Source of the DNA: Lysobacterales bacterium
GTDB lineage: Bacteria; Pseudomonadota; Gammaproteobacteria; Xanthomonadales; Xanthomonadaceae
Direction: 5' to 3'
Assembly (NCBI GenBank): GCA_019510125.1
Contig: JAEKKX010000004.1
Span: 310,001 to 374,000 of the forward strand
DNA: 64,000 nt
Part shown: in pieces, positions 28,021 to 60,411 of the stretch
How positions within the stretch are numbered: the stretch's first letter is position 1
How the letters are laid out: every line of letters starts with the position of its first letter
The notes under the pieces: generated by a model
Told to the model about the DNA's origin: nothing
Seen by the model: the letters and a program-made list of their open reading frames with translations, nothing else
Database searches by the model: none
Program-made: the position numbers and the translations under genes

Positions 28021-28097
28021 CGGGGTATAGCGCAGTCTGGTAGCGCGCCTGCTTTGGGAGCAGGATGTCGGGGGTTCGAATCCCTCTACCCCGACCA
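28021..28097 (+). tRNA. tRNA-Pro (anticodon TGG)
   Basis: 77 nt with encoded CCA. The acceptor stem CGGGGTA/TACCCCG pairs fully. The anticodon loop TTTGGGA gives TGG. Confidence 0.97.
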
Positions 28098-28154
28098 TCT
28101 CCGCGGCGCCCGCCACCGCGTTCATGTTCTGTCCGCCGGCTATCATGCGCCTGT

Positions 28155-28231
28155 GCGCCCGTAGCTCAACCGGATAGAGCACCGGCCTTCTAAGCCGGCG
28201 GTTGCAGGTTCGAGTCCTGCCGGGCGCGCCA
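28155..28231 (+). tRNA. tRNA-Arg (anticodon TCT)
   Basis: 77 nt with encoded CCA. Acceptor stem GCGCCCG/CGGGCGC. Anticodon loop CTTCTAA gives TCT. A TATCAT -10 at 28141-28146 suggests a promoter of its own. Confidence 0.97.
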
Positions 28232-28322
28232 TCCGCACGCCGGGCCGGGGCAGGGGACACGAGGGGTTCGCCCGGCGGGGCGCCAGGGATGGAAACCGCG
28301 CAATGTTCCAAGCGTTCCAATG

Positions 28323-28399
28323 GTGGCTGTAGCTCAGTTGGTTAGAGTACTGGATTGTGATTCCAGTGGTCGGGGGTTCGAATCCCCTCAGCCACCCCA
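28323..28399 (+). tRNA. tRNA-His (anticodon GTG)
   Basis: Acceptor stem GTGGCTG/CAGCCAC with encoded CCA. The extra G at 28322 opposite discriminator C supplies the G(-1) identity base of tRNA-His. Anticodon loop TTGTGAT gives GTG. Confidence 0.97.
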
Positions 28400-28474
28400 G
28401 ATTCGAGGTACCGCGGCGTTTTCGCCGCAACGCGCACGATCGTCCGGGAATCTCGGCGGTGTTCGCCAGGTGGA

Positions 28475-28504
28475 TTGCGACCGGGCGGAGAAGTGCGTTA
28501 TCCT
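28475..28504 (+). promoter_or_regulatory. Promoter before tRNA-Lys
   Basis: TTGCGA (28475-28480), 18-bp spacer, TATCCT (28499-28504), about 10 bases before the tRNA. Confidence 0.65.
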
Positions 28505-28514
28505 TTGCAGCATC

Positions 28515-28590
28515 GGGCCGTTAGCTCAGTTGGTAGAGCAGTTGACTCTTAATCAATAGGTCCAAGGTTCGAATCCTTGACGGCCCACCA
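28515..28590 (+). tRNA. tRNA-Lys (anticodon CTT)
   Basis: 76 nt with encoded CCA. Acceptor stem GGGCCGT/ACGGCCC. Anticodon loop CTCTTAA gives CTT, which reads the AAG codon favoured in this GC-rich genome. Confidence 0.96.
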
Positions 28591-28599
28591 GTTCCAGCG

Positions 28600-28630
28600 A
28601 CGCCCGGCTCCGGCCGGGCGTTTCGTTTTT
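28600..28630 (+). terminator. Terminator after tRNA-Lys
   Basis: A 9-bp stem ACGCCCGGC/GCCGGGCGT with a TCCG loop (28600-28621) followed by TTCGTTTTT. Confidence 0.8.
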
Positions 28631-28657
28631 CGTCTCCGGGAAGCCGGCGATGGCCGC

Positions 28658-28742
<85 letters not shown>

Positions 28743-57248: not shown

Positions 57249-58396
57249 TGTCCGACGTGCTCGACCTCACCCGCGACCTGATCGCGCGCCGTTCGGTCAC
57301 GCCGGAAGACGCCGGTTGCCAGGCGCTGATCGCCGAGCGCCTCGAACGCGCAGGCTTCCGCTGCGAGCACCTGCGCTTCGGGCAGACCGACAACCTCTGG
57401 GCGACGCACGGCGGACCTTCGGACGAAACGCCTGGGCCCGTGCTCATCCTGCTGGGCCACACCGACGTGGTGCCGCCGGGACCGGTCGAAGCCTGGACCA
57501 GCGATCCGTTCGCGCCGACGATCCGCGACGGCATGCTCTACGGGCGCGGTGCGGCCGACATGAAGGGCAGCGTCGCCGCGTTCGTGGTCGCGTTGGAGCG
57601 CTTCGTCGCCGCGCATCCCGACCATCCCGGCACCGTCGGCCTGCTGCTGACCTCCGACGAGGAAGGCGACGCCATCGACGGCGTGCCGAAGGTCGCGGCC
57701 TTGTTCCGCAAACGCGGTCAGCGCATCGACTGGTGCATCACCGGCGAGCCGTCGTCGAAGGCGGTGCTCGGCGACCTGCTGCGCGTCGGCCGGCGCGGCA
57801 CGCTGTCGGCGACGCTGACGGTGCAGGGCATCCAGGGTCACGTCGCGTATCCGGAGAAGGCGCGCAATCCGATCCACCAGGCGCTGCCGGCGCTGGCCGA
57901 ACTCGCCGCGCGCCGCTGGGACGACGGCTACGAGAATTTCCCGCCGACCAGCTTCCAGATCAGCAACGTCCACGCCGGCACCGGTGCGAACAACGTCATC
58001 CCGGGCGCGCTGGAGGTGCTGTTCAACCTGCGCTACAACCCGACGTGGACCGCGGCGCGGCTCGAAGCCGAATGCGAAGCGGTGCTGCGTGCGCACGGGC
58101 TCGACTACGCGATCCGCTGGCATCGCGGCGGCGAGCCGTTCTACACGCCGGAAGGCCCGCTGCGCAGCGCCGCGCGCGCGGTGCTGACCGCGTTCGCCGG
58201 CGCGCCGCCGGAGGAGAACACCGCCGGCGGCACGTCAGACGCACGCTTCATCGCGCCGCTGGGCGCGCAGTGCGTCGAACTCGGCCCGGTCAACGCGAGC
58301 ATCCACAAGGTCGACGAGCACGTGTCGGTGGCCGATCTGGAACGCCTGCCGGACCTGTACCAGGCGCTCATCGGCAGGCTGCTGGTCGGCGCCTGA
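57248..58396 (+). CDS. dapE: Succinyl-diaminopimelate desuccinylase
   Basis: Zinc hydrolase that releases LL-diaminopimelate for lysine and peptidoglycan. The protein is 382 aa, M20 family. Metal ligands: His in [11 protein letters not shown], Asp in GRGAADMKG, Glu-Glu in [11 protein letters not shown], and a C-terminal His in [11 protein letters not shown]. The dimerisation domain (about 180-295) has [10 protein letters not shown]. The asnB leader region follows 118 bases after the stop. Confidence 0.97.
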
Positions 58397-58478
58397 CCGC
58401 GTCGTGCGCCTTCCCCCGCCTGCGGGGGAACGTCGGGATGGGGATGGTCGACGCGGCTCCCCGCGCCGACGGACGGAC

Positions 58479-58508
58479 TTGCCACCGCCCCCGGGGCCCG
58501 GTTAGGGT
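58479..58508 (+). promoter_or_regulatory. Putative promoter of the asnB leader
   Basis: TTGCCA (58479-58484), 18-bp spacer, TAGGGT (58503-58508). The -10 ends six bases before the leader ATG at 58515, so the transcript would start at or next to the start codon. The -10 is a moderate match. Confidence 0.5.
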
Positions 58509-58514
58509 GGCTCC

Positions 58515-58613
58515 ATGAGCCGCTGCCCCGCCAACCGCAATCGCGCCAACAACCGCAATTCGAATAATTGCGGATTCACCGTGCGCGCGAGGCGAACCGG
58601 CGACCAGGCATAA
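58515..58613 (+). CDS. Asparagine-rich leader peptide upstream of asnB (candidate attenuator peptide)
   Basis: A 32-residue frame with ATG start and TAA stop, too short for ordinary gene finding. Residues 6-19 read ANRNRANNRNSNNC: seven Asn codons within twelve (residues 7, 9, 12, 13, 15, 17, 18). Four of the seven are AAT, unusual in a genome that strongly prefers AAC, which would make translation more sensitive to charged tRNA-Asn. Four Arg are interspersed among them or just before. It ends 91 bases before asparagine synthetase. The arrangement matches biosynthetic leader peptides (such as those of his, thr and ilv), in which the ribosome stalls on codons for the end product. It is probably leaderless. 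Confidence 0.65.
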   Translation: MSRCPANRNRANNRNSNNCGFTVRARRTGDQA

Positions 58614-58675
58614 GTTCCAGCAACACCGCCCAGTCCCAGAAACCCGCGCCGGAAGCGCGGGTTTCGCGCTTCCGG
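58553..58675 (+). promoter_or_regulatory. Candidate transcription attenuator of asnB
   Basis: Hairpin 1:2, inside the Asn codons: CCGCAATT (58553-58560) pairs perfectly with AATTGCGG (58566-58573). Hairpin 3:4, terminator-like: GAAACCCGCGC (58639-58649) pairs perfectly with GCGCGGGTTTC (58655-58665). Region 2 (GCGGATTC, 58570-58577) is partly complementary to region 3 (58639-58647), giving a possible antiterminator. A further perfect stem, CCGGAAGCGCG (58649-58659) with CGCGCTTCCGG (58665-58675), excludes hairpin 3:4. Stalling on the Asn codons would cover region 1 and favour read-through. The U run after 3:4 is only three bases, so termination strength is uncertain. Confidence 0.55.
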
Positions 58676-58704
58676 GGTACCGAAAACCCCCAGGAGCCCT
58701 GCCC

Positions 58705-60411
58705 ATGTGTTCGATTCTCGGTGTCTTCGACCTGCGCGCCGGCGCCGATCTCGGCCCGCTGCGTCCCCTCGCGCTCTCGCTGTCGGCGCGACAGCGCCAT
58801 CGCGGTCCCGACTGGTCCGGCGTGCACGTCGAACCCCGCGCGCTGCTGGTGCACGAGCGCCTCGCGATCGTCGATCCCGCCGGCGGCGCGCAGCCGCTGC
58901 TGTCGGAGGACGGCGCGCTGGTGCTGGCGGTCAACGGCGAGATCTACAACCACCGCCTGCTCGAAGGCGCACTGAAGCAGCCGTACGCCTTCCAGAGCGG
59001 CTCCGACTGCGAGGTGATCAACGCGCTGTACGCCGAGTCGAAGGAGCGCGGCGGCGATGTCGGCGCGTGGATCGACCGCCTCAACGGCATCTTCGCCTTC
59101 GTGCTGTGGGACGGCGCGGCCGGGCGCTTCGTCGTCGCCCGCGACCCCATCGGCGTCTGCCCGCTGTACTGGGGCCACGACGCCGACGGCCGGGTCTGGG
59201 TGGCGTCGGAAATGAAGGCGCTGGTGCGCGTGTGCGACGACGTCGCTCAGTTCCCGCCGGGCCACTGGTACGACAGCGCCACCGGCACGCTGCGCCGCTA
59301 CCACGAGCGCGCCTGGCGCGACCACGCCGCCACCGACGGGGTGCAGGTGTCCGCGCGCGAACTGCGCGAAGCGTTCGAGGCTGCCGTGCATCGCCAGTTG
59401 ATGAGCGACGTGCCCTACGGCGTGCTGCTGTCGGGCGGCCTGGATTCGTCGCTGGTCGCGGCCTGCGCCGCGCGCTTCGCCCGCAAGCGCGTCGAGGACG
59501 GCGATCAGACCGAGGCGTGGTGGCCGCGGCTGCACTCGTTCGCGATCGGCCTGAAGGGCTCGCCCGACCTCGCCGCCGCCGAAGTCGCGGCGAAGGCGCT
59601 GGGCACCGTGCACCACGGCTTTACCTACACCTTCGAGGAAGGCCTGGACGCGCTGCCGGAGGTGATCCGCCACATCGAGACCTACGACGTGACCACGATC
59701 CGCGCGTCCACGCCGATGTTCCTGCTGGCGCGTCGGATCAAGGCGATGGGCGTCAAGATGGTGCTGTCGGGCGAGGGCAGCGACGAGGTGTTCGGCGGCT
59801 ATCTCTACTTCCACAAGGCGCCGGACGCGCGCGAATTCCACGCCGAGACCATCCGCAAGCTCGACGCGCTCTACAACTACGACTGCCTGCGCGCCAACAA
59901 GTCGATGATGGCCTGGGGCGTCGAGGCGCGCGTCCCGTTCCTCGACACCGAATTCCTCGACGTGGCGATGCGCATGGACGCGGCGGCGAAGATGGTGCGC
60001 CCCGGGCCCGACGGCGGCCGCGCGATCGAGAAGGCGGTGCTGCGCGAGGCGTTCGAGGGCTATCTGCCGAAGGAAATCCTCTGGCGGCAGAAGGAACAGT
60101 TCAGCGACGGCGTCGGCTACGGCTGGATCGACGGCCTCAAGGCGCATGCCGAGGCGCAAGTCAGTGACGCCGATTTCGCCGCCGCCGCGCAGCGCTTCCC
60201 GATCAACCCGCCGCAGACCAAGGAAGCGTATTTCTACCGCCGCCTGTTCGAGGAGCAGTTCCCGGGCGACGCCTGCGCGGAGACGGTGCCGGGCGGCAAG
60301 TCGATCGCGTGCTCGTCGCCGGCGGCGATCGCCTGGGACGCGGCGTTCGCCAATGCCGCCGACCCGTCGGGGCGGGCGGTGGCGGGGGTGCACCAGGCGG
60401 CGCTGGCCTGA
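58705..60411 (+). CDS. asnB: Asparagine synthase B (glutamine-hydrolysing)
   Basis: Makes asparagine from aspartate, ATP and glutamine. The protein is 568 aa. The N-terminal glutaminase has nucleophile Cys2 (MCSILGVFD), RHRGPDWSG and VNGEIYNH. The synthetase domain has the PPi loop LLSGGLDSS starting near Ser243, MVLSGEGSDEVFGGY and VEARVPFLD. An AGGAG site lies eight bases before the ATG. The 91-base gap to the leader peptide contains the attenuator-like hairpins, so asparagine supply probably controls expression (inference). Confidence 0.97.
   Translation: MCSILGVFDLRAGADLGPLRPLALSLSARQRHRGPDWSGVHVEPRALLVHERLAIVDPAGGAQPLLSEDGALVLAVNGEIYNHRLLEGALKQPYAFQSGSDCEVINALYAESKERGGDVGAWIDRLNGIFAFVLWDGAAGRFVVARDPIGVCPLYWGHDADGRVWVASEMKALVRVCDDVAQFPPGHWYDSATGTLRRYHERAWRDHAATDGVQVSARELREAFEAAVHRQLMSDVPYGVLLSGGLDSSLVAACAARFARKRVEDGDQTEAWWPRLHSFAIGLKGSPDLAAAEVAAKALGTVHHGFTYTFEEGLDALPEVIRHIETYDVTTIRASTPMFLLARRIKAMGVKMVLSGEGSDEVFGGYLYFHKAPDAREFHAETIRKLDALYNYDCLRANKSMMAWGVEARVPFLDTEFLDVAMRMDAAAKMVRPGPDGGRAIEKAVLREAFEGYLPKEILWRQKEQFSDGVGYGWIDGLKAHAEAQVSDADFAAAAQRFPINPPQTKEAYFYRRLFEEQFPGDACAETVPGGKSIACSSPAAIAWDAAFANAADPSGRAVAGVHQAALA

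Follow-up and report, generated by a model that had tools for sequence, protein, structure and literature searches.

The his, thr, leu, ilv, phe and trp leaders of Proteobacteria are ribosome-mediated attenuators, and a 2004 survey of proteobacterial attenuators reportedly lists the same set. In Firmicutes, asparagine genes are preceded by Asn-specific T-box riboswitches that sense the charging of tRNA(Asn). We describe here a leader upstream of asnB, the gene for glutamine-dependent asparagine synthetase, in Lysobacterales. It was noticed in a single stretch of 64,000 nucleotides (the whole of the DNA analysed, hereafter ‘the window’) and was then compared across the order. On the strength of that comparison we consider it likely that asnB is preceded by an asparagine-specific, ribosome-mediated transcription attenuator.

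The leader region of asnB

The gene that precedes the leader is dapE (TIGR01246). The product of asnB matches NF006949 (asparagine synthase B) with 836 bits, against a cut-off of 499 bits. Between and including these landmarks the window contains the following elements.

58479–58508, + strand: promoter-like element TTGCCA, 18 nt, TAGGGT (read from the sequence)
58515–58613, + strand: leader ORF of 32 codons, ATG at 58515 and TAA at 58611–58613, peptide MSRCPANRNRANNRNSNNCGFTVRARRTGDQA
58533–58568, + strand: run of Asn codons, candidate control codons (from the sequence and the single occurrence of their 5-in-7 pattern in the genome)
58553–58573, + strand: perfect 8-bp hairpin CCGCAATT-CGAAT-AATTGCGG within the Asn codons, candidate 1:2 hairpin
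58587–58592, + strand: GCGAGG, candidate antiterminator core, at the site of GCGGG in relatives
58614–58638: C-rich spacer after the leader stop
58639–58665, + strand: hairpin A, perfect 11 bp, GAAACCCGCGC-CGGAA-GCGCGGGTTTC, at the terminator position of relatives
58649–58675, + strand: hairpin B, 11 bp, CCGGAAGCGCG/CGCGCTTCCGG, overlapping and excluding hairpin A
58692–58696, + strand: Shine-Dalgarno-like AGGAG of asnB (read from the sequence)
58705–60411, + strand: asnB, glutamine-dependent asparagine synthetase (PF00733, PF13537, NF006949, TIGR01536)

The preliminary description of this DNA had reported a frame at 58515–58613 in which seven of twelve successive codons are for Asn, including four AAT, together with a perfect 8-bp hairpin at 58553–58573 within those codons. 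The coordinates of the frame are right (the Asn residues are numbers 7, 9, 12, 13, 15, 17 and 18 of the peptide), and the hairpin is present and appears when the window is folded without translation. A motif of five Asn in seven codons has a single match in the 4.08-Mb genome, at the asnB leader, and a reversed-pattern control has none. An NCBIfam scan of three leader peptides, with E-values up to 10, returned no family.

Two further observations concern the surroundings of the locus. An intergenic repeat of the CCCCCGCCTGCGGGGG type lies just 3' of dapE (58401–58443) and has three further matches in the genome at 86–92% identity; similar repeats are found between leader and asnB in two related loci (L106 and L143). 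Elsewhere in the window, positions 28021–28742 hold a cluster of five tRNA genes (Pro, Arg, His, Lys and Leu).

Asn-rich frames before asnB in related genomes

Upstream regions of asnB were taken from the best 80 of at least 591 relatives and from whole-genome searches, in which asnB was present in all 11 genomes from the window's genus and in 221 of 247 from its family; the upstream region was read for 107 of those 221. The resulting 187 regions comprise 140 of Lysobacterales type, 131 of them distinct (nine are duplicates), and 47 others, made up of 37 loci of other groups plus L185–L191 and L021, L028 and L036. Rows L089 and L192 were dropped as the asnB start was not located, and L193, the second half of a split asnB, was replaced by the first half (L194). 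Measurements were made on 128 regions, namely the 131 distinct ones minus L106, L143 and L181, with 118 of these outside the window's genus and ten inside it.

If the frame were a functional leader, the preliminary description had argued, Asn-rich frames with divergent nucleotides should precede asnB in related genomes. By reading, such a frame precedes asnB in 130 of the 131 distinct Lysobacterales-type regions, that of L143 being judged from its relative L106. An automated count used three thresholds. An ORF with at least five Asn in 14 codons within 450 nt of asnB was found in 109/131 regions as compared with 0/47 other loci; with at least four Asn the counts were 122/131 and 6/47, and with at least three they were 129/131 and 12/47. 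The weakest leaders, with three Asn in 14 codons, are those of L020, L035, L047, L141, L160 and L173. The apparent lack of a leader at L106 and L143 proved to be an artefact of the 450-nt cut and of the start codon demanded inside it: the leader of L106 lies farther upstream, where NLNRNTNPRPPQAGD-stop is whole in the raw sequence, and in L143 only the last codons of NLNRNTNPRPPQAGD-stop appear at the edge of the stretch, with the Asn codons beyond the cut. L181, which has a main-type asnB, shows no convincing leader in 450 nt, though it passes the three-Asn threshold.

Reading of the 47 set-aside regions found no Asn-rich leader in 46, the exception being L060. Five regions with four Asn in 14 codons (L051, L055, L068, L075 and L079) were rejected as leaders, since they lie in DNA of 63–70% A+T and the rest of the arrangement is absent. 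In four of the five, the following 80 nt form no stable hairpin; at L075 there is a hairpin of −13.3 kcal/mol, yet the frame resembles the end of an upstream gene.

Among the set-aside regions are those of a second AsnB type. In seven family genomes (L185–L191) the best AsnB is only 63–64% identical to that of the window, and no Asn-rich leader precedes asnB. The AsnB of L021, L028 and L036, whose records are titled Holophagales, Rhodococcus and Deltaproteobacteria, is 74–80% identical, likewise with no leader, and may represent transfer or mislabelled contigs; these three were grouped with the other loci on the basis of their record titles.

Clade types can be told apart among the leader peptides (NNNNRNNASLPRAGD, NNRNNLRANNRARPMRVCD and NNNRANNNANRWRARA are examples), and the 3' codons differ from type to type. 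The N-termini and lengths of the peptides are variable (20–48 codons in 106 loci), and the parts kept across leaders are the Asn run and those 3' codons that also take part in RNA pairing. AAT is over-used in the leaders relative to asnB: the 128 leader clusters contain 761 Asn codons, of which 371 are AAT, as compared with 54 of 332 when the first 1650 nt of asnB are counted in 40 loci.

An in-frame start codon (ATG in 105) lies 5–8 nt after a promoter-like pattern in 106 of the 128 regions, where shuffled sequences would give 0.2. A stricter promoter pattern is found in 58/128 regions, among them the ten measured in the window's genus. In the window itself the ATG at 58515 lies 6 nt after the −10-like TAGGGT, and its leader is probably translated leaderless; the spacing across the order suggests that transcripts generally begin at the leader AUG. 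A transcript that starts with the leader ATG has been reported for trpL of S. meliloti in the available passages of PMC7298713.

The downstream hairpin and its predicted pairing with the leader

A hairpin begins 7–36 nt (median 26) 3' of the leader stop in the 128 regions. Outside the window's genus, the 12 nt after its GCGGG core contain at least five T in 118/118 regions and at least six in 117. The stem core, CCCGC/GCGGG, is nearly invariant, and the flanking pairs co-change. At stem position 5 the pair is A-T in 74 regions, G-C in 32, C-G in 4 and T-A in 2, the stem having ended in 16; position 6 is C-G in 69, T-A in 35 and T-G in 4, with the stem ended in the remainder. The stems are best hairpins, so their pairing is by construction; the changes of letter are not.

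The motif GCRGG, which mirrors the terminator's 3' arm, occurs between the Asn run and the leader stop in 108 of 128 leaders, as compared with 24.3 expected from shuffles. The mean leader:terminator-arm duplex is −18.1 kcal/mol for a leader with its own arm, −15.6 kcal/mol when arms of other species are swapped in and −12.3 kcal/mol for shuffled sequence; the own duplex is better than the mean swap in 97/128 regions and reaches p ≤ 0.05 against shuffles in 75/128. Compensatory changes in the stems, which the preliminary description had named as a mark of the proposed switch, are thus seen as covarying terminator stems, alongside mirrored antiterminator cores.

The RNA was also folded with a masked ribosome, as proposed there. 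When the ribosome occupies the stop codon, the mean probability of the terminator is 0.98 (117 loci). With the ribosome on an Asn codon and the second arm absent, pairing of the first arm with the leader is 0.69, versus 0.49 for shuffled and 0.59 for swapped sequence (118 loci). Such pairing is at least 0.5 in 115/118 loci and also in 228/472 shuffles, and exceeds all four of a region's own shuffles in 71/128. Taken region by region, neither this test nor the duplex comparison settles the pairing at many of the loci. At equilibrium, with the whole terminator present, its probability falls under 0.5 for one or more stalled states in 22 of the 118 loci outside the window's genus. Equilibrium folding was consequently rejected as proof of switching; as the terminator mostly persists on stalling in these calculations, the switch has to operate kinetically, in line with the classical model. 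A 1:2 hairpin appears in the folds of L019 and L033.

The one set-aside region with a leader, L060, comes from a record titled Rubrivirga (Rhodothermota, Rhodothermales); there, an Asn-bearing frame and a terminator with a U-tract precede asnB. An asnB match was found in 14 of 80 Rhodothermales genomes. Among 13 loci of that order, six (L204–L208 and L201, which is the same place as L060) have a frame with three to five Asn codons before asnB and a terminator 22–25 nt after the leader stop; the remaining seven (L209–L215) have no such frame, and L216 stands outside the count. Antiterminator pairing was rejected for these Rhodothermales leaders, leader:terminator pairing being above shuffles in none of the six.

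Two overlapping hairpins in the window's genus

The window's own genus departs from this arrangement. Ten genomes were compared, with the identical L006 and L088 counted once; the best-hairpin pick gave hairpin B in four of them, and hairpin A was used for the measurements. The Asn codons of these leaders shift, appear and vanish in frame, and the other parts of the leader vary little. Hairpin A is unchanged in all ten.

The preliminary description had called the 11-bp hairpin at 58639–58665 terminator-like. The hairpin is there and is perfect, but a continuous U-tract is absent. From the GCGGG core of hairpin A the window reads UUUCGCGCUUCC, an interrupted tail with five T in 12 nt, and tails in the genus have five to seven T in 12 nt with G and C interrupting the run (TTTCGCGC or TTTCGTG). 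A consensus scan of 58300–58800 gave no hit to a terminator or to a sigma-70 promoter. In an Rfam scan of 58000–59000 the lowest E-value belonged to Leu_leader, which lies over hairpin A and scores 18.7 bits where the gathering score is 50; no match came close to its gathering score, and none of the five matches at E-values up to 5 was a T-box. A search of the window's genome for hairpin A with up to three mismatches found no second copy, and a search for the hairpin with its tail, allowing few mismatches, found only the asnB locus. Given that confinement, the tail could not be shown to be a usual terminator in this genome. Owing to the interrupted tail, hairpin A alone is not accepted without reserve as an ordinary terminator in the genus.

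The antiterminator side is likewise altered. GCRGG is absent from eight of the ten genus leaders, that of the window included, and GCGAGG stands in its place; as GCG-A-GG with a bulged A, it pairs with CCCGC of hairpin A in the stalled folds of some relatives, L006 among them. As to the partial complementarity between region 2 and the 5' arm of the hairpin that had been described for the window, leader:arm pairing in the genus is not above shuffled sequence by duplex energy or longest helix (p = 0.23 for the window duplex), and a strong 2:3 pairing in the window is unsupported by these comparisons. In stalled-state folds of the genus, arm-leader pairing is 0.63 as compared with 0.42 for shuffled sequence.

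A second hairpin, absent from the preliminary description, overlaps the first. Hairpin B (58649–58675) is formed by the stretch of the interrupted tail together with the loop and 3' arm of hairpin A. It is paired in 110 of 110 cells across the ten genomes. One of its pairs is changed on both sides (G-C in five genomes, A-U in four and G-U in one), and two others vary via G-U; the covariation score was reached by 12 of 500 shuffles. In a nucleotide tree of asnB, in which deep splits are unresolved, L092 (A-U) falls inside a group with L093 and L094 (G-C) with a support of 0.997, apart from the other A-U genomes L005, L006 and L087. That placement indicates that the double change occurred more than once. 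A single compensated pair of this kind lends support to hairpin B and falls short of proof.

In equilibrium folding, the probability of hairpin A in the window is 0.96 with a ribosome at the stop and 0.46–0.68 with a ribosome on the Asn codons. An equilibrium shift from A to B on stalling is seen in three of the ten genus genomes (the window, L091 and L095); five hardly move, and the folds of L093 and L094 deviate from the expected A/B behaviour. The genus keeps the Asn codons, the switch appears altered, and how the switch works there is less certain than in the rest of the order.

Proposed mechanism and its alternatives

The features that comparison of these genomes brings out are the conserved Asn codons, the preference for AAT, the T-tailed hairpin of the relatives, the mirrored core and the spacing between promoter and ATG. 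In the mechanism that we propose, transcription would start at or next to the leader AUG, as the promoter spacing implies, and a ribosome would translate the Asn-rich leader. With ample Asn-tRNA(Asn) the ribosome would reach the stop codon and cover the 3' half of the leader, the downstream hairpin would form, and RNA polymerase would stop before asnB. When Asn-tRNA is scarce, the ribosome would instead stall on the Asn codons, leaving the 3' half of the leader (GCGGG in most relatives) to capture CCCGC in the 5' arm of the hairpin, and asnB would be transcribed. In the window's genus the same sensor would be retained, with hairpin A (off) competing against an on state that combines hairpin B with a short 2:3 pairing containing a bulge; hairpin B would secure read-through after the short pairing has formed. 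Stalling, termination and the response to asparagine are steps that we infer from the sequences. Ribosome-mediated attenuation through the Asn codons, as first suggested for the window, passed the comparative test across the order, while the pairing given for the window itself is weaker.

Of 20 genomes searched, 16 have AsnRS above the family cut-off, among them that of the window; of the four genomes without it, three are listed at 75–86% completeness and one (G009) at 99%. With AsnRS in the genome, the free asparagine that AsnB produces can limit the charging of tRNA(Asn), and the proposed feedback is sensible on that account.

The altered region 3' of the leader stop invites other readings for the window's genus. 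The Asn leader might sense as proposed and act through Rho on the spacer 58614–58638, or else hairpins A and B might govern how asnB is translated or how its RNA decays. A non-intrinsic output of this sort would account for the interrupted U-tract after hairpin A and the lack of a match in the terminator scan, for the C-rich spacer 3' of the leader stop, and for the retention of hairpin B without a U-tail. We nevertheless judge it unlikely: hairpin A sits at the relatives' terminator site and is unchanged in all ten genus genomes, and the asnB Shine-Dalgarno sequence lies outside both hairpins. The same losses (the GCRGG core in eight of ten genomes and the continuous U-tract) could also mean that the attenuator is a decaying relic in this genus and functional in the rest of the order. 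We regard that as quite improbable, given that the Asn run survives in-frame insertions and deletions, that hairpin A is unchanged and that hairpin B carries a compensated pair.

Two further explanations concern the leader frame itself. The peptide could act in its own right, as a small protein or a trans-acting leader peptide, and a role in trans has been reported for peTrpL of Sinorhizobium meliloti in the available passages of PMC7298713; yet in the asnB leaders it is the Asn run and the 3' pairing codons that are kept, with N-termini and length left to vary, and an acting peptide seems highly improbable. That the frame is a chance Asn-rich reading of a non-coding gap deserves almost no credence: short frames are indeed common in the six-frame list, but the Asn pattern is unique in 4 Mb and the frame recurs before asnB in 130 of the 131 related regions, L143 being judged from L106.

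Discussion

If the proposal is true, asparagine joins the amino acids that are sensed by a leader peptide, and an order to which widely studied soil and plant-associated bacteria belong gains a predictable readout of Asn-tRNA charging. It also offers many natural versions of one switch, in which the RNA parts change and the sensor is retained. The broader statement, that asparagine attenuation is Lysobacterales-wide with a leaderless leader and is found also, perhaps independently, in Rhodothermales, which belong to a different phylum, and that the switch of the window's genus has been remodelled into two hairpins that overlap and exclude each other, seems to us evenly poised between right and wrong.

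The preliminary description had suggested a new attenuator class. No asparagine leader peptide or attenuator is described among the literature matches listed, whose coverage leaves out most subscription papers, and none appears in the passages matched by word search in PMC2965389, PMC1262725, PMC8632094, PMC5009743 and PMC1183508. The proposed attenuator itself is of a known type.

Among described systems, T-box riboswitches bind tRNA directly and need no leader ORF, and the asnB leader gives no match to them in the Rfam scan. The Trp, Cys, Leu and ilvB leaders of Actinobacteria (PMC1262725, available passages) likewise are comparative predictions, some without obvious terminators; a word search of that paper turned up neither asparagine nor Asn. 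As far as the available passages of PMC7298713 go, S. meliloti trpL/rnTrpL resembles the asnB leader in that a leader peptide is translated from a transcript beginning at the ATG, with an attenuator after it, and differs from it in its Trp codons, its alphaproteobacterial host and the role reported in trans.

The asnB leader is close to the classical amino-acid attenuators, with which it shares a leader rich in codons for the product and, in the order outside the window's genus, a putative downstream terminator and a leader segment that mirrors the terminator's 3' arm. It is unlike them in matching no Rfam family, in a start codon placed right after a −10-like element, in having asnB as its target, and in its specificity for asparagine. 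As far as we have found, it is this specificity that is new in an attenuator of otherwise known type.
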